Origin: Phycisphaerae bacterium
GTDB taxonomy: Bacteria > Planctomycetota > Phycisphaerae > Tepidisphaerales > Tepidisphaeraceae
DNA: 41,751 nucleotides
Reading direction: 5' to 3'
Assembly (NCBI GenBank): GCA_025924315.1
Contig: JAICIO010000045.1
Span: 1 to 41,751, forward strand
How positions within the stretch are numbered: the first letter of the stretch is position 1; each line of letters opens with the position of its first letter. The position numbers and the translations under genes are program-made. The notes beneath the pieces are model-generated. The model did no database searches. It was not told the DNA's origin and worked only from the letters and a program-made list of their open reading frames with translations. This document shows, piece by piece, positions 3,994 to 39,231 of the stretch.

Positions 3994-6900
3994 TTATTCT
4001 TCGAGTTTGTTGAGCTCCGCTTCAAGCGCTGCGAGCTGATCCTGGGTTTGTTTCACCAGATGCGGCGGGGCTTTGGCGATGTAACCTGCATTCGCCAGTC
4101 GTCCCTTCATCGCGCCGATCTGTTTCACGATCTCTTCGCGACGCTTTGAGCTGCGTTCGGCTTCGGCCTTCTCATCTAGCGCGCCTTCGATGAACAATTC
4201 GCATCCCGCCGCTTGGGATTTCGCGGCGGTTGCTGCGATCGCGCTAAGCCGCGAAGCGGCTTCCTTTACCTCGCAAATCGCGAGATGCTCGATCAGCGCC
4301 TTGTTCGCTTCGACCTGGCGAATCGATTCTTCGGGGCCCTGGATCGAGACGGTCACCGGTTGCTTTGGGCTGACGTTGTGATCGTTCCGCACCTTGCGGA
4401 TCTCGGTGATGATCTCCTGCAATCGTGTGAAGACATGCTCGGCGCCTTCGCTCGTGAGGCCGTCCATGCGCTCGTCGTACTTCGGCCATCGCGCACGGAT
4501 GAGCTGTGCATTGTCGCCGGGTGTAATGCGGTTTGGGATGCCGCGCTGTGGGCGCACCTCGTTCAGCTTCCACCAGAGGATCTCCGTGATGAATGGGATC
4601 ATCGGGTGCATCAGGCGCAGCGACACGTCGAGCGCCGTTGCCAGAATGTTCGCCACGTGCGGGGCGCGTTGCTCATCCCGCATCTGCGGCTTGATCGCTT
4701 CGATGTACCAGTCGCACAGATCGCCCCAGAAGAAGTCGTAGCACGCTTTCGAATACACATCGAAGCGATAATTCTTCATCGCCTCTTCGGTCGTCTGCAC
4801 CGTGCGCGAAAGGCGCGAGAGGATCCAGCGATCGACGATCGACCATTGCGATTCATCGACCGCCGCCACGGGCACCGATTCGAGGTTCATGAAAAGGAAC
4901 CGCGTGGCGTTCCAGAGCTTGTTGCAGAAATTTCGGCCGATGTCGAACTTCGGGCTCGTGTTGCGGCCGGTCTTGGCGTCCTTCTCGACCGGCATGCGCA
5001 CGTCCTGCGTGTTGGTCGCCATCGTGGCGAGCGTGAAGCGCATCGCGTCGGCGCCGTGCGTGTGAATGATGTCCAGCGGATCGACGCCGTTGCCGAGCGA
5101 CTTGCTCATCTTCCGCCCTTCGCCGTCCTGCACCACCGGGTTGATGTAGACCTCGGTGAACGGCAGGCGATTGCGGAAGTACAGGTTGAACATCACCATC
5201 CGCGAGACCCAGAGCGTGATGATCTCGCGGGCGGTCACGAGCACGTTCGTCGGGTTCCACTTGTTCAGTGCCGGCGTGTCGTCCGGCCAGCCGAGGGTGG
5301 AGAGCGGCCAGAGGCCGGAACTGAACCATGTGTCGAGCACATCCGGATCTTGCACGGCGCCATACTTTTCGAGCGCGTCGATAATCTCGCGATCGTTCGG
5401 ATCGCGCACGCACACGAAGGTGAAGGGCAGCGAGCGATCGGCGATGTCCTCCGGACGCGCTTCGGCACGCTCAGCGCGGTGCGTCATCGCGATGCGGTTT
5501 TCCTGTCCCCATTTGGTCAGCTGCTCGATCACCGCTTCGAACTGCTGATCGTTCAGCTTGTCCGACAGGCGTCCCTCCGGGAGCCGCCAGACGGGGATGC
5601 GATGACCCCACCAAAGCTGGCGGCTGATGCACCAGTCGCGGATGTTTTCGTGCCAGGATTGGAAGGTCTTGGCGTAGCGGGCGGGGAAGAAGCGGAGCTG
5701 TTCCTCTGCTCCGCTCTCCCTGGAAGGGAGAGGGTTAGGGTGAGGGTCGAGCGTGGGAGTAGCCGACCCGTTGTTTTGCGAAGTTGCACTGCTCGACTCT
5801 GACGATGACGATCCACCCTCACCCTTACCCTCTCCCTCATAGGGAGAGGGGATCAGAGTGCGCTGATCCGCGGCCATCGCGCGTAACGCCGCGGCCGCCA
5901 AACGATCATCCGTCACTTTGCAGTACCACTGGTCGCTGAGGTACGGCTCGATCGGGACGTGGCTGCGGTAGCTGTGGCCCACGCTGTGGCGATAGGGCTT
6001 CACGTCTTCGAGCAGTTTTTTCTGGCGGAACCATTCGAGGATGGCTTTGCGCGCTTCGTAGCGGTCGAGGCCGAGGACGAACTCCGCGTCGCCGATGTCG
6101 GTCCAGCCGTGCTTGTCAGAGATGGAGCCGTCGGGCGCCATCACGTTGATCAGTGGCAGGCCGTGCTTGCGGCCGAGCTCGTAGTCGTTCGGATCGTGGG
6201 CGGGGGTGACTTTGAGGAAGCCGCTCGCGTAGCGCGCCTTGGCGTCGTCGCGGTTTGGATCGGCGAGGACCACGTACTCGTCTTCGATGATCGGAATGAT
6301 GCGGTTGACGATGGGAAGACGCACCTTCTTTCCACGAAGCGCCGGGGCGCGCGGGTCTTTTGGGTTGATCGCGACGGCGGTGTCGCCGAGCATCGTTTCG
6401 GGGCGGGTGGTTGCCACCGTCACGTGGGTGGGCCCGCCCGCTGAAGCGGGCTCCGCCAAAGGATATTGCAGGTAGTAAAAGTGGCCGTCGATTTCTTCCA
6501 TCTCCACTTCGTCGTCGGCGAGCGCGGTTTGTGTGGCGGGATCCCAGTTCACCAATCTTTTGCCGCGGTAGATCAGGCCGTCTTTGAAGAGTTGGAAGAA
6601 GGCTTCGCGCACGGCGCGGGCGCGCGGTTCGTCCATGGTGAAGGCCTGACGGTCCCAATCGCAGCTGCAGCCCATGGCTTTGAGCTGGCCCGTGATCGTC
6701 TTTTCGTACTCGTCCTTCCATGCCTGGATAAGCTTCACGAATTCGTCGCGCTGAAAGTCCGTGCGGCGCTTGCCTTGTTCTTTCAGCACGCGTTTCTCGA
6801 CCACGGTTTGCGTGGCGATGCCGGCATGATCCGTGCCGGGCAGCCAGCAGGTGTTGTCGCCGAGCATGCGGTGGTAACGGGTGAGGATGTCCTGCAGCGT

Positions 6901-8575: not shown

Positions 8576-9235
8576 ATGCAGGAATCGAGTACGAAGAAGA
8601 TCTATGACGTCCATTCGTTGTTTTATGATGCGACGTTCGGCCGGCTGGTGAAGCGCCGCATTGAGCGGGCGATCAACCATATGAATATTGGCGACAGCGA
8701 CTTAGTGCTCGATCTGGGCATCGGCACGGGCGCGTCGCTGGCCTTCTATCCGCCACGCGGGCACGTCATCGGTGTCGACCTGTCCGCCGGCATGCTTCGC
8801 GAAGCCCGCAAAAAGATCCGCGAACGTGGGCTGACTCACACGACCGTTTTCCAGGCGAATGCGCTTCAGCTTCCCTTCGGCGACAGTACATTCGACCACG
8901 TTTTCATCAGCCACGTGATCAGCGTCGTAAGTGACCCGATCCAGCTGGTCAAAGAAGCCCAGCGCGTCGCGAAGCCCGGCGCGCGGATCGTGATCGTGAA
9001 TCATTTCCAATCGACGAACCGATTTTTGGCCCTGGTCGAAAAATGGCTCTGCCCGCTGTGCACGAAGCTCGGGTGGCGGAGCGATCTGGCGCTAAACGAT
9101 CTGATCAAGCGCACCGGCGTGGAAGTGGACTACCGCTACAAGCTCGAGAGCATCGACTTGTGGGAGACGGTGGTGATCACGAACAACAAGAGCGCGCTGG
9201 CTTCGCACGAATCTCACCAAACGATCGCAGCGTAG
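8576..9235 (+). CDS. PmtA-like phosphatidylethanolamine N-methyltransferase
   Basis: The 219-residue class I SAM methyltransferase has motif I LDLGIGTG at 45-52, acidic motif GVDLSAGML at 66-74 and the post-motif region DSTFDHVFISHVISVVSDP. The stretch VNHFQS...EKWLCPLCTKLGWRSDL matches the Rhodobacter/Sinorhizobium PmtA lineage, which methylates phosphatidylethanolamine stepwise to phosphatidylcholine at the membrane surface. Generic UbiE/COQ5-type methyltransferases lack that block, so a lipid headgroup substrate is favoured, though not proven. A good promoter and GGAAGG nine bases before the ATG support this start. Transcribed alone, it ends just before a block of nested repeats. Confidence 0.8.
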   Translation: MQESSTKKIYDVHSLFYDATFGRLVKRRIERAINHMNIGDSDLVLDLGIGTGASLAFYPPRGHVIGVDLSAGMLREARKKIRERGLTHTTVFQANALQLPFGDSTFDHVFISHVISVVSDPIQLVKEAQRVAKPGARIVIVNHFQSTNRFLALVEKWLCPLCTKLGWRSDLALNDLIKRTGVEVDYRYKLESIDLWETVVITNNKSALASHESHQTIAA

Positions 9236-9355
9236 TTCTCCTCATCCCCTCTCCCTGGAAGGGAGAGGGTAAGGGTGAGGATCGACCGCGGTAGTCGATC
9301 CCGCACGTTTCACACGATACCGTTGAGTCGTCATCCTGAGAGTCTGTGATTTTTT

Positions 9356-9429
9356 GCGTGGCGAGGGCGTCTCGCCCTCGCATTTGCGGCTACAGCCGCG
9401 TTCGCGAGGGCAAGATGCCCTCGCCACGC
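9356..9429. repeat. Family E inverted repeat
   Basis: Arms 9356-9381 and 9404-9429 match at 24 of 26 positions (GCGTGGCGAGGGC core). Each arm is itself a dyad. The centre holds a third, perfect 6-bp hairpin (GCGGCT/AGCCGC, 9387-9400). Confidence 0.88.
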
Positions 9430-9446
9430 TGAAAAGATCACACGCT

Positions 9447-9517
9447 CTGAGCGATGCGACGGATCTCGAGTTCGCGCGCGACGTTCGATCCCGAGATCCT
9501 CCGCTTCGCTCAGGATG
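9447..9517. repeat. Family F inverted repeat
   Basis: The arms carry CATCCTGAGCGAAGCG and GAGGATCTCGGGATCG type sequence in opposite orientation. The same family is at 31332-31410. Confidence 0.82.
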
Positions 9518-9611
9518 TCCTTCGGCGTCCATTTCGGATGCGAACGAGCGTCAACCCTCCCGCGTCACCCTCACCCTGACCCTCTCCCTCAAGGGAGAGG
9601 GGAGAAGGCGC

Positions 9612-10706
9612 TCAACTCGCTTCAGTCGGTGTCTCGTCGCATTGACCTTCGAGTGAGGGGTAATCGATGTACCCTTCGGGACCCGAAGCGTAGAAGAGTT
9701 CCGGGCGCGGCGTGTTGAGCGCTGCCTTCTTCGCGAAGCGGTTGGGCAGATCCGGATTGGCGATGAAAAGTACGCCAAAGGCGACGGCGTCGGCTTCGCG
9801 TTTTTCGATGGCCTGCTCGGCGGTTTCGAGCGTGAACTTTTCGTTCGCGATGTAGACTCCACCGAACTTTTGCTTGAGCATCGGGCCGATGCGACCCTCG
9901 CCGAGTGATTCGCGCGCGACGATGAAGGCGATCTTTCGCTTGCCGAGTTGCTCGGCGACGTAGCCGAACGTGGCGGCGGGGTTGGAGTCGCCCATGTCGT
10001 GCGCATCGCCGCGGGGAGCGAGGTGCATGCCGACGCGATTGGCGCCCCACACGTCGATGCATGCGTCCGTCACTTCGAGCATCAGCCGTGCGCGGTTTTC
10101 GATCGATCCGCCATAACGATCGGTGCGCTGGTTGGTCTTATCCTGCAGGAATTGGTCGAGCAAATAGCCGTTGGCGCCGTGGATTTCCACGCCGTCGAAA
10201 CCGGCGTGTTTGGCGTTCTCGGCGCCTTTGCGATACGCAGCGATCACACCAGGGATTTCACTCGTTTCCAGCGCTCGAGGTGTCGGATACGGTCGCTTCG
10301 GACGAAGCAAACTGACGTGCCCATTCGCGGCGGTGGCACTCGGCGCGACCGGTAGTTTGCCGTCAAGGAACGACGGATCGGAAATCCGGCCGACGTGCCA
10401 AAGCTGCAGCAGAATCCGTCCGCCCGCGTCGTGAACCGCCGCCGTGATTTTCTTCCAACCTTCGACCTGCTCATCCGACCAGATGCCCGGCGTATTGGGA
10501 TAGCCGACACCCATCGGATCGACCGACGTGGCTTCACTGAGAATCATTCCGGCACAGGCGCGCTGCACGTAATAGTCGCGCATGAGATCGTTCGGGATCC
10601 GCCGGTCGATCGCGCGGCACCGCGTGAGCGGGGCCATGATCACGCGGTTGGGCAGATGCAAGGCACCGATTTGAATGGGATCAAGAAGCGTTGGCATAGA
10701 CGCCAT
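9612..10706 (-). CDS. Old yellow enzyme family alkene reductase (NemA-like)
   Basis: This is an FMN-dependent ene-reductase of about 364 residues that would reduce activated C=C bonds or nitro compounds with NAD(P)H. The TIM-barrel signatures are in order: LPNRVIMAPLTRCRA at 18-32, MILSEATSVDPMGVGYPNTPGIW at 54-76, QLWHVGR at 101-107 and HGANGYLLDQFLQD at 176-189, supplying the substrate-binding His176/Asn179 and the proton donor Tyr181. The FMN phosphate loop reads AFGVLFIANPDLP (309-321), where the family normally has FGR, so the usual arginine is replaced by valine. ATGs at 10706 and 10697 are both possible; neither has a clear ribosome-binding site. The gene lies 50 bases downstream of the PEGA lipoprotein gene on the same strand. 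Confidence 0.93.
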   Translation of the reverse strand: MASMPTLLDPIQIGALHLPNRVIMAPLTRCRAIDRRIPNDLMRDYYVQRACAGMILSEATSVDPMGVGYPNTPGIWSDEQVEGWKKITAAVHDAGGRILLQLWHVGRISDPSFLDGKLPVAPSATAANGHVSLLRPKRPYPTPRALETSEIPGVIAAYRKGAENAKHAGFDGVEIHGANGYLLDQFLQDKTNQRTDRYGGSIENRARLMLEVTDACIDVWGANRVGMHLAPRGDAHDMGDSNPAATFGYVAEQLGKRKIAFIVARESLGEGRIGPMLKQKFGGVYIANEKFTLETAEQAIEKREADAVAFGVLFIANPDLPNRFAKKAALNTPRPELFYASGPEGYIDYPSLEGQCDETPTEAS

Positions 10707-11292: not shown

Positions 11293-12495
11293 ATGATTTT
11301 CGTCGTCATCATCATCGCCTTGCTCGCCGCGGATGTACTGTGGTGGCGGTGGGCGTATCACGTTCTTGGTCGCGCGCCGCACGCGAGATACTGGCGCTTC
11401 GCGCTCGGGCTCTTCATGGGCGTGATGCTCGGCTACTTAGTCATCTTCATGATCGCGCCCGGATATGGGCGGCGCTCGTACACGATCATTCCGCAGTCGG
11501 TGCTGGCAATGATTTACCTGTGGCATCTGCTTGTGATGCCATTCACGGCGCTTGTGGCTCTGGTCGTCGCGATTTTGCGTGGGATAGCCCGCATTTCCGC
11601 GTGTAGCCGGCGAGCTTGCTCGCCGAGGTCGGACCGGAAAGAGACGGCGAGCAAGCTCGCCGGCTACACGCAGACCGAAGGTCCCACGCGACGCGAGATC
11701 CTCGCCGCGTCGATCGTCGGGGTGCCTCCGCTTATTGCGGGTGGCCTCACCGCCCGCGCAATGGCGCATCTGACCGATCTGCGTGTTCGCCGATTCGATC
11801 TGGCGCTTCCGAACCTTCCGCCGAATCTCGATGGCGTGACGATCGCTCAAGTGAGCGACACGCACATCGGCCGCTTCACGCGCAAGGGCTCGCTCGATCG
11901 CGTCGTCGAAATGACCAACCAGCTGCGTGCCGATCTCGTGCTTTTCACCGGCGATCTGATCGACATCTCGCTCGCGGATTTGCCTCGCGGCATCGAGATG
12001 CTGCATAAACTCGATCCGCGAGCAGGGCTTTATCTCATCGAAGGCAATCACGATTTGATCGACGACAAAACGGTTTTTGAGCGCACGATGAAGTCGACGA
12101 ACATCCCCACGCTGCTGAACGAAAGCACGCTGGTGAAAGTTCGAGGCGAAACCATTCAGCTTCTCGGCACGCGTTGGACGCATGGGAACGACAACATCCG
12201 CCGCATGACCGAATCCGTCCCCGCGGATCCGAATGCGTTCAGCATTCTGATGGCCCATCACCCGCATGCGTTCGATTACACGACCGCCGATCTCACGCTC
12301 TCCGGCCACACGCACGGCGGACAGATCATGCTCAACGAACGCCTCGGCTTCGGCCCCGCGATGTTCCGCTATTGGTCCGGGTTGTATGAGAAAGGAAATC
12401 GAAAGTTGATCGTGTCGAATGGGACAGGGAACTGGTTCCCGTTACGCATCAACGCGCCAGCCGAAATTGTGCATCTGACTCTCCACCGCGCGTAA
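11293..12495 (+). CDS. Membrane-anchored metallophosphoesterase (YkuE/YaeI-like)
   Basis: The 400-residue product begins with three hydrophobic segments (about 1-15, 36-54, 68-96), then a second TRREILAAS..GVPPLIAGGL segment that looks like a Tat-style signal anchor. The calcineurin-like phosphodiesterase domain follows with all five metal motifs: SDTHIG at 188-193, GDLID, EGNHDL, MAHHPHAFD and SGHTHGGQ. Related proteins are membrane phosphodiesterases, some acting on UDP-diacylglucosamine or phospholipid headgroups; the substrate here is unknown. The ATG at 11293 is preferred over a TTG at 11269, which would precede the first membrane segment by eight residues. Residues about 103-127 (rich in Arg, Cys, Ser and Lys) come from an in-frame palindromic repeat located in the loop between the membrane segments. 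Confidence 0.87.
   Translation: MIFVVIIIALLAADVLWWRWAYHVLGRAPHARYWRFALGLFMGVMLGYLVIFMIAPGYGRRSYTIIPQSVLAMIYLWHLLVMPFTALVALVVAILRGIARISACSRRACSPRSDRKETASKLAGYTQTEGPTRREILAASIVGVPPLIAGGLTARAMAHLTDLRVRRFDLALPNLPPNLDGVTIAQVSDTHIGRFTRKGSLDRVVEMTNQLRADLVLFTGDLIDISLADLPRGIEMLHKLDPRAGLYLIEGNHDLIDDKTVFERTMKSTNIPTLLNESTLVKVRGETIQLLGTRWTHGNDNIRRMTESVPADPNAFSILMAHHPHAFDYTTADLTLSGHTHGGQIMLNERLGFGPAMFRYWSGLYEKGNRKLIVSNGTGNWFPLRINAPAEIVHLTLHRA
11599..11671. repeat. Family G palindrome inserted in frame in the metallophosphoesterase gene
   Basis: Perfect 27-bp arms (11599-11625, 11645-11671; core CCGGCGAGCTTGCTCGCC) flank a 19-base spacer. An intergenic relative is at 22671-22742. Confidence 0.95.
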
Positions 12496-12508
12496 CGTTC
12501 AATCGACA

Positions 12509-12572
12509 TGTGGCACAGCCGCCCTCGGCTGTGCTTGCGGTGCGGAGCACAGCCGAGGGCGGCTGTGCCACA
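12509..12572. repeat. Family A palindrome between convergent genes
   Basis: Perfect 26-bp arms (12509-12534, 12547-12572) flank a 12-base spacer. It lies between the stops of the metallophosphoesterase gene and the minus-strand gene at 12584, where it could end transcription from both sides. Confidence 0.95.
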
Positions 12573-12583
12573 TTTTCTTGTCG

Positions 12584-14025: not shown

Positions 14026-14110
14026 GCAAACGGGAGCGCAGCGGCTCGGCCGCGGGGTTTGGATGCCCACGATGCACAACCCGCGGCAAAGCCGCTGGGC
14101 TCCCGTTTGC
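14026..14110. repeat. Family I inverted repeat
   Basis: Arms 14026-14060 and 14078-14110 (GCAAACGGGAGC ... AGCGGCT ... CCGCGGGTT) match at about 30 of 34 positions. It lies between the cyclophilin stop and the ffs promoter and may terminate the former. Confidence 0.87.
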
Positions 14111-14301: not shown

Positions 14302-14307
14302 GTTTTA

Positions 14308-14386
14308 TTTGCGATTTTCGATTTGCAATTTGCGATTGCCGGTCGCGAAATTTGCAATTGCAAATCGCAAATTGAAAATCGCAAAT
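14308..14386. repeat. Family J inverted repeat abutting the nadK start
   Basis: Left half 14308-14337 and right half 14351-14385 are made of TTTGCGATTTTC and ATTTGCAATT units in opposite orientation. It fills the whole ffs-nadK gap and leaves no Shine-Dalgarno sequence before nadK. Confidence 0.87.
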
Positions 14387-18980: not shown

Positions 18981-19406
18981 ATGAATTTCACCTTCCCTTC
19001 CAGCTATGCCGCGATGCGCGATGTCCAGAAGGCGATTCTGGACGAAGTGGATCGCAACGGTTACACGGGCGCCAGCGCCTATGCGATCAAGATCGCGCTG
19101 GATGAGGGATTGATTAACGCCGTCAAGCACGGCAATAAACAGGACCCTGGCAAAAAAGTTCGCGTCTGGGCGAACATCACGCCGGAAGTGGCGGAGATCA
19201 TCATTCACGACGAAGGGGTGGGATTTAAGCGCACCGACGTTCCCGATCCAACCGCCGAAGAAAACCTCGAAAAGTGTTCCGGCCGCGGGATATTATTGAT
19301 CGAAGCGTACATGACCGAGGTCGAGTGGGGCGACAGCGGCCGACGTATACGCATGGTCAAGAAGAACGAAGAACTCGCAGGCGTACGTAACGAGCCGCGA
19401 CCGTAA
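18981..19406 (+). CDS. HATPase-domain anti-sigma factor serine kinase (RsbW/SpoIIAB-like)
   Basis: The 141-residue GHKL ATPase has the N box DEGLINAVKHGN at 41-52, G1 box HDEGVGF at 76-82 and G2 box GRGILLIEAY at 101-110. Such kinases phosphorylate a STAS antagonist and bind a sigma factor; here the STAS gene is directly upstream, but no sigma factor gene or PP2C phosphatase is in the window, so the output is unknown. The last five residues (NEPRP) and the stop codon are encoded by the left arm of an inverted repeat (19389-19457). No clear ribosome-binding site before the ATG. Confidence 0.88.
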   Translation: MNFTFPSSYAAMRDVQKAILDEVDRNGYTGASAYAIKIALDEGLINAVKHGNKQDPGKKVRVWANITPEVAEIIIHDEGVGFKRTDVPDPTAEENLEKCSGRGILLIEAYMTEVEWGDSGRRIRMVKKNEELAGVRNEPRP

Positions 19407-19457
19407 GGGAGCGGTTTGGCAACTGCACAAACCGCTCCCCTACGGTCGCGGCTCGTT
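19389..19457. repeat. Family M palindrome spanning the HATPase stop
   Basis: The 29-bp arms (19389-19417, 19429-19457; GAGCCGCGACCGTA core) differ at one position and flank an 11-base loop. The HATPase TAA is in the left arm. The element ends 21 bases before the rhomboid ATG. Confidence 0.95.
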
Positions 19458-22152: not shown

Positions 22153-22235
22153 CGTGTAGGGTCCGCTTCAGCGGACCGGTTATTCGCCTTTCGCGCGCAA
22201 AGAAATAAGCGGTCCGCTGAAGCGGACCCTACACG
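22153..22235. repeat. Family N inverted repeat
   Basis: The 32-bp arms (22153-22184, 22204-22235; GGGTCCGCTTCAGCGGACC core, itself a dyad) match at 31 of 32 positions. It lies between convergent genes; relative at 23766-23837. Confidence 0.95.
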
Positions 22236-22670: not shown

Positions 22671-22742
22671 CGTTTAGCGGCGAGCTTGCTCGCGCAGTGT
22701 TTTAGGACGGAAAATGACGCGAGCAAGCTCGCCGGCTAAACG
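22671..22742. repeat. Family G inverted repeat, intergenic copy
   Basis: Arms 22671-22694 and 22718-22742 match except for one deleted base (GGCGAGCTTGCTCGC core). It is the intergenic relative of the element inside the metallophosphoesterase gene. The rest of 22456-22750 shows nothing recognisable. Confidence 0.92.
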
Positions 22743-22750
22743 TGGAGAGT

Positions 22751-23765: not shown

Positions 23766-23837
23766 GTACGGTCCGCTTCAGACTGGTTATTTATTGGGAC
23801 CCAAGCAAAATAACCGGTCCGCTGAAGCGGACCTTAC
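23766..23837. repeat. Family N inverted repeat, second copy
   Basis: The right arm (23808-23837) matches family N; the left arm (23766-23791) lacks four bases of the central GGACC dyad. It lies just upstream of the holin-like gene. Confidence 0.87.
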
Positions 23838-31331: not shown

Positions 31332-31410
31332 GTCATCCTGAGCGCAGCGAAGGATCTCGGGATCGGGCGACGCTCTTGGTATCGAGATCCTTCGCTTCGC
31401 TCAGGATGAC
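31332..31410. repeat. Family F inverted repeat, second copy
   Basis: The 28-bp arms (31332-31359, 31383-31410; CATCCTGAGCG..GGATCTCG) match at 27 of 28 positions. It separates the convergent porin and lipoprotein genes. Confidence 0.95.
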
Positions 31411-34276: not shown

Positions 34277-34347
34277 CCGCAGATTACGCAGATTTCGCAG
34301 GATTAAAATACTGCGTTCAAAATCTGCGAAATCTGCGAAATCTGCGG
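34277..34347. repeat. Family Q inverted repeat (GCAGATTTC units)
   Basis: CCGCAGATTACGCAGATTTC on the left faces iterated AATCTGCGAA on the right, arms about 27 bases. It lies between the two minus-strand genes 32343-34214 and 34358-38554. Confidence 0.9.
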
Positions 34348-38993: not shown

Positions 38994-39060
38994 AGTAGCA
39001 ACCGCTTATCGAAGTGCAAGCGCATTTTTAATTCTTTAGTAACTGCTGGGGAGATCATTT

Positions 39061-39142
39061 GCCACAGAGCACACAGAGAGCACAAAGGAGAACAAGGAAG
39101 CGGCTCTGCTCACTTCTCTGTGCTCTCTGTGTGCTCTGTGGC
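39061..39142. repeat. Family R inverted repeat (CACAGAG units)
   Basis: GCCACAGAGCACACAGAGAG on the left is complementary to CTCTCTGTGTGCTCTGTGGC on the right, around 24 unpaired bases. It lies between the divergent blaI-like and DUF4139 genes. Confidence 0.93.
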
Positions 39143-39231
39143 TAACTCTTTCGCTTTTGTTGAACTTTGGATGAATTCCCGCGTCCAAAGTGCTCGCTTG
39201 TACAATGCGTCTCAACTCAACAGGAGATCCG

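Follow-up and report, generated by a model that had tools for sequence, protein, structure and literature searches.

The nested block occupies the whole gap (9236-9611) between two convergent open reading frames (8576-9235 and 9612-10706) of the window, that is, the complete stretch of 41,751 nucleotides analysed here (contig C45). The source genome comprises 6.57 Mb in 262 contigs; its relatives include 25 other genomes of the same family and none of the same genus. The best named match of the right-hand gene is in a Phycisphaerales MAG (82% identical). The elements of the block and their counterparts elsewhere in the window are listed in Table 1.

Table 1. Positions of the repeat elements in the nested block and of related elements in the same window
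Feature	Position	Strand	Remarks
Left D arm	9240-9281	+	hairpin CCCTCTCCCT/AGGGAGAGGG at 9247-9269, plus TAAGGGTGAGG
Right D arm, inverted	9566-9608	-	hairpin 9580-9601
Palindrome C, interrupted	9330-9519		normally 79 bp; tips GTCATCCTGAG (9330-9340) and CTCAGGATGTC (9509-9519)
Mobile unit S-R1, 106 bp	9341-9446	+	family E of the initial annotation
Duplicated target CTGAG, left copy	9336-9340	+	unit L001
Duplicated target CTGAG, right copy	9447-9451	+	unit L001
Left shell end S	9341-9357	+	AGNNTGTGANNTTTT type
Right shell end S, inverted	9428-9446	-
Core palindrome R1	9358-9427		two inverted GTGGCGAGGGC hairpins; also unshelled elsewhere in the genome
Central hairpin	9386-9399		GCGGCTACAGCCGC; from sequence and fold
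C body downstream of the insertion	9452-9508		probably family F of the initial annotation
Intact, uninterrupted C palindrome	31332-31410
D pair, no C inside	5704-5858
Core palindrome R2, unshelled	19389-19457

The outermost layer is formed by two D arms (inverted copies at 9240-9280 and 9569-9608), in agreement with the initial annotation, which described inverted D units flanking the block. Between them lies the palindrome C; its left arm is split by the unit S-R1, and the C body comes after the insertion. The unit consists of a shell S, with inverted ends AGNNTGTGA..TTTT, surrounding a core palindrome. It had been annotated as family E with its own central hairpin, and both the long palindrome (9338-9447) and the inner hairpin were found. 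The CATCCTGAG pair reported to enclose E is also present (9332-9340 and 9509-9517); however, E is not located in the middle of this pair, since it splits the left arm of C. The unsplit C of the same window aligns with the block segment downstream of E. The family F copy described alongside was rejected as a separate insertion; this segment, for which no family sequence had been given, most likely represents the rest of C. Long inverted repeats of other families also occur in the window (11596-11674 and 22719-22746; 14026-14110; 14307-14386; 39058-39145; 34277-34347).

Insertion of the S units into the C arms

The search for the S ends gave 102 matches at ≤1 mismatch (0 in the control), and these terminal inverted repeats are common to the copies, as in MITEs. 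Paired ends in the own-genome loci define 54 distinct units, which were labelled and typed by regular expressions. Identical 5-bp copies, CTGAG or CTCAG, flank 38 of the 54 units, which is the target duplication of a MITE. Excision of the unit together with one of the CTNAG copies restored the C arm in 43/54 units, at the same point of the arm. At ≤0, 1 and 2 substitutions, 27, 36 and 40 of the 54 rejoined, respectively; the six control junctions (shifted, or with none or both of the copies) rejoined in 0-2 of 54 units, and in 0-1 without mismatch. This strict test replaced a looser one (≤5 substitutions), in whose control 36/54 rejoined even with both copies left.

The remaining arrangements are variable. 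Five of the 54 units (L004, L006, L008, L010 and L016) have a C tip on either side but no C body. Three others (L025, L169 and L150) have clean 5-bp copies at CTGAG sites and no recognisable C arm, with something tip-like retained in L169 and L150. By eye, L030 and L102 appear to lie in C arms with an indel or mismatch, and L168 is a decayed S unit. Shortened S-R1 units of 76 and 73 bp (L107/L173 and L152/L188) were also observed, which have one core hairpin instead of two, C arms and CTGAG copies.

The elements had been proposed to be mobile and to prefer existing palindromes as targets. Both proposals are borne out for S: near-identical copies with the 5-bp duplication occur at many sites, and the comparison of insertion points in the own-genome loci places 43 units at one C point and 5 more between C tips. 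No evidence was found for the 'templated growth' that was also suggested. The motif CTNAG alone does not account for this choice. An unaimed sample of the own genome (800 kb in 40 stretches) contains 839 CTGAG/CTCAG sites, just 52 of them in intact C arms, so that about 6% of the insertions would be expected there under even choice, against the 43/54 found; this excess is counted over all CTNAG sites and would be weaker with a restriction to intergenic gaps.

The IS1182 family is described as including members that target palindromes, and IS1272 as replacing stem-loops (PMC5678879). By this published mechanism, S would land on an inverted repeat and replace it, leaving no duplication. The five units between C tips without a C body might have arisen in this way; they are not given by plain duplication and count against our best explanation. 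However, the 38 units with identical 5-bp copies lie nearly all beside a C body, and the five tip-only cases could also be products of recombination between two S units of a single C, one per arm, a double arrangement that does occur. The IS1272 pattern, with no duplication and the target repeat removed, would apply to at most 5/54 units, and there the C tips are kept. Stem-loop replacement is therefore unlikely as the general route, and insertion with target duplication is preferred.

The predicted RNA fold of 9236-9612 is far more stable than shuffled sequences (z = -16.7; 0/100 shuffles equally stable). The palindromes might be kept as terminators or mRNA-stabilising hairpins between the convergent genes, with the nesting being incidental, and a block that spans such a gap and folds extremely well is what this would look like. 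However, the fixed insertion point, the duplications and the near-identity across sites would all stay unexplained, and the Rfam search of the block gave no family at gathering score; this reading is very improbable.

Separate occurrence and age of the layers

The C arm pattern has 300 matches in the own genome at ≤2 mismatches (control 0). The 800-kb sample contains 53 C arms and 21 intact C palindromes without S, 15 of which are exactly 79 bp. R1 pairs are both free and shelled in this sample, and three of them (L386, L387 and L394) have no shell. The layers thus do occur separately, with D, C, R1 and R2 each also found alone in the same genome. The cores of all 54 S units are R1 or R2, and exact short shells without a core were not found in the three genomes searched. 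As no shell without a core was seen, it is only the swapped cores that speak for the independence of the shell from its core.

Partial layers were not encountered at the corresponding place in relatives: in the 29 loci of relatives where the left-hand gene has a homologue, the stretches examined contain neither the right-hand gene nor any of the repeats. No orthologous empty site was found via the neighbouring genes in these loci, and the empty-site evidence is therefore paralogous, that is, from other copies in the own genome.

The median pairwise identity is 96.2% among the S-R1 units and 79.1% among their C hosts (n=25, the 116-bp R1 forms among the 54 units with a host excisable at full length); S is therefore younger than C. 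The nesting order had been taken to record successive insertions, which holds for S after C and is not supported for D and C. That E is an original part of C was rejected in view of the empty C copies and this identity gap.

Another explanation is that the whole C+S-R1 block (or D+C+S) is one composite spreading as a unit, with old and fixed nesting. Sequence matches often span C and S together, and C is at the same D point in 7/7 cases. However, the S units are far more alike than their C hosts, S is found in either orientation with respect to the C tip and also with the core R2, each arm of two C copies holds an S unit and the cores in the two arms differ (L181 and L165), and 21 intact C copies in the sample have no S. 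Given the identity gap, the two orientations, the swapped cores and the empty C copies, a composite is hard to keep for S in C, and we consider it improbable.

For C within D the evidence is of another kind. Among 30 D pairs, 7 hold a C and 23 do not; some of these pairs were collected by searches directed at C and D, and the unaimed 800-kb sample gave 8 D pairs, 2 with C (one being that of this window). In the seven pairs with a C, the distance from D arm to C tip is about 48 bp; where it was measurable, it ranged from 45 to 49 bp per side, apart from a single left-hand value of 54. The inner lengths of the C-less D pairs are 40-91. Such a fixed position in the centre is consistent with an insertion of C into the D loop, and we infer that C entered D. 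A D+C composite by common descent, in which the pair spread as a unit, is a possible alternative.

Candidate enzymes and comparison with known systems

The shell was found at C-like tips in 9 of the 397 genomes of the class, including the own genome (≤1 mismatch; reversed control 0 in all), and a few single shell matches among them resemble chance or coding sequence (e.g. L354, L360 and L362). In G013 and G016 the shell surrounds palindromes other than the own-genome cores. A related second shell was observed in G021 (L355, L363, L368, L373 and L383), with ends GAGAGGGTGTTAAAGAAC around a GTGGCATGGGC-type palindrome at GTCATCCTGAG-type C tips. A search of 400 kb of G013 revealed no stand-alone cores; the three hairpin matches there fall into two copies, of which one is shelled and the other has just one shell end.

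In G238, which belongs to a different family of the class, a C-like site, GTCATGCTGAG, holds an S-type end that adjoins IS1182-type transposase fragments. Two fragments match the IS1182 transposase model NF033551 of NCBIfam (E 6.9e-19 and 2.2e-15); their scores of 68.1 and 56.5 bits are far under the curated cut-off of 270, and each piece covers part of the model. The second fragment also matches Pfam PF13751 (E 2.1e-7), and the first matches no Pfam family. At L372, about 175 bp separate the S-type end from the stop of the NF033551-matching fragment. The element is frameshifted and broken across contigs. The other element end is found at C tips in the contig ends L361 and L382, whose sequences overlap with the beginning of the contig that bears the G238 element, as expected for a repeated element that breaks an assembly. 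G238 also contains gene-less units (L367) that have ends of this kind and CTGAG copies and are located in a C arm. These broken fragments in one relative suggest that the partner of S may be an IS1182-type transposase.

No IS1182 transposase was detected in the 1.52 Mb of own-genome loci (overlaps included), and the draft genome may miss one; nor was there a long pair among the listed S ends that would represent an autonomous partner. DDE_Tnp_1 (PF01609) has no match in the whole own genome, and this model hardly scores fragments of the G238 type. An IS4/IS5-type partner was also considered and rejected: PF01609 has 29 matches in G013, where the examined loci are without S-like ends. A tblastn search of plasmids gave one partial match only.

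It might also be that every layer is a REPIN mobilised by RAYTs, the HUH transposases associated with REPs. Ten Y1_Tnp matches occur in the genome, and inverted copies of a palindrome family that is also present in the window flank the best of them. However, the four repeats covered by the scan (C, D, S and R1) do not flank any of the 10 loci. Moreover, the 5-bp duplication at S argues against an HUH mover; HUH enzymes are not known to leave a target duplication. A RAYT was rejected as the mover of S because of this duplication and because no Y1_Tnp locus is flanked by S; for C, D, R1 and R2 a RAYT mover is possible. That RAYTs moved all of the layers has a low probability.

Some repeats of the window are found near such genes. 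The palindrome family GGTCCGCTTCAGCGGACC (22153-22235 and 23808-23837) has 112 matches on both strands of the 800-kb sample, and an inverted pair of it flanks the RAYT-like gene with the strongest Y1_Tnp match in the genome (L031), which looks like a classical REP/RAYT pair. The TGTGGCACAGCCG..CGGCTGTGCCACA palindromes occur at 1-25, 2475-2541 and 12508-12573, and the same motif is inverted beside the Y1_Tnp match L038. Three more Y1_Tnp genes (L032, L033 and L034) are each flanked by a different repeat, and the genome therefore seems to hold several RAYT-like systems.

The layers resemble several known elements. CGTC-tagged REPs are listed in PMC3733652 as being without associated transposase genes, and one paragraph there mentions some REP dimers within longer palindromes. 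C is similar to these in its head-to-head pair of hairpins, YGTC-AT outer ends, high copy number and lack of a linked transposase gene; of the 21 intact C pairs in the 800-kb sample, 18 have C or T before GTC. The likeness to the four families in that paper is one of tag and dimer form; by eye, the C arm ATCCTGAGCGNAGCGAAGGAT shows only partial pairing, compared with the 8-9 bp stem and 4-5 base loop of CGTC REPs. A difference is that empty copies of the host palindrome are present in this genome, which makes the order readable. REPs are reported as targets of the insertion sequences ISPpu9, ISPsy8 and ISRm19 (PMC1525189), which share with S the specific insertion into a repetitive palindrome; whereas those are whole insertion sequences, S is a gene-less unit with a REP-like palindrome as its core. 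IS1272 (PMC5678879) is similar in having inverted repeats as targets, and an S-type end lies beside IS1182-type fragments in a relative; it is described as replacing its target without duplication, whereas S mostly duplicates CTNAG, keeps the target and carries no gene. R1 and R2 are inverted hairpin pairs like the REPINs of PMC3116915 and PMC2817692; unlike those systems, no RAYT-like gene is flanked here by C, D, S or R1. No report of a three-layer arrangement with swappable cores was found in the open-licence literature, mostly at the level of titles and abstracts. The parts are of known kinds, and the combination is unusual.

Possible carriage of palindromes within palindromes

Taken together, the block is probably a stack of separable repeats, with an S-R1 MITE, most likely moved by an IS1182-type transposase, in a REP-like C that is central in D. 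In this reading, the innermost layer is a 106-bp non-autonomous MITE with short inverted S ends around the REP-like double hairpin R1. It is inserted at CTNAG with duplication of 5 bp, and the enzyme responsible would be a DDE-type transposase, most likely from the IS1182 family. The target is an arm of C, an older CGTC-tagged REP-like double palindrome, and C in turn occupies the middle of D, the third palindromic element.

The REP-like core would be a cargo taken up by the shell. R1 and R2 are unrelated, share one shell in one genome and are both also free there; at least two further genera have other cores, and the shells seen all have a palindromic core. It is tentatively conceivable that an IS1182-type shell repeatedly picks up resident REP-like palindromes and inserts them anew into a different palindrome family. 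Bringing the two S ends together may depend on the hairpin core.

The spread of REP-like palindromes without a linked dedicated transposase is an open question, as for the CGTC REPs of PMC3733652. This one genome contains the target both empty and filled and the core both free and shelled, which makes the sequence of events and the rule of target choice directly readable. The gene-less S units also gain a candidate enzyme of the IS1182 type. If the shell does act as such a platform, palindromes would spread by carriage inside palindromes.
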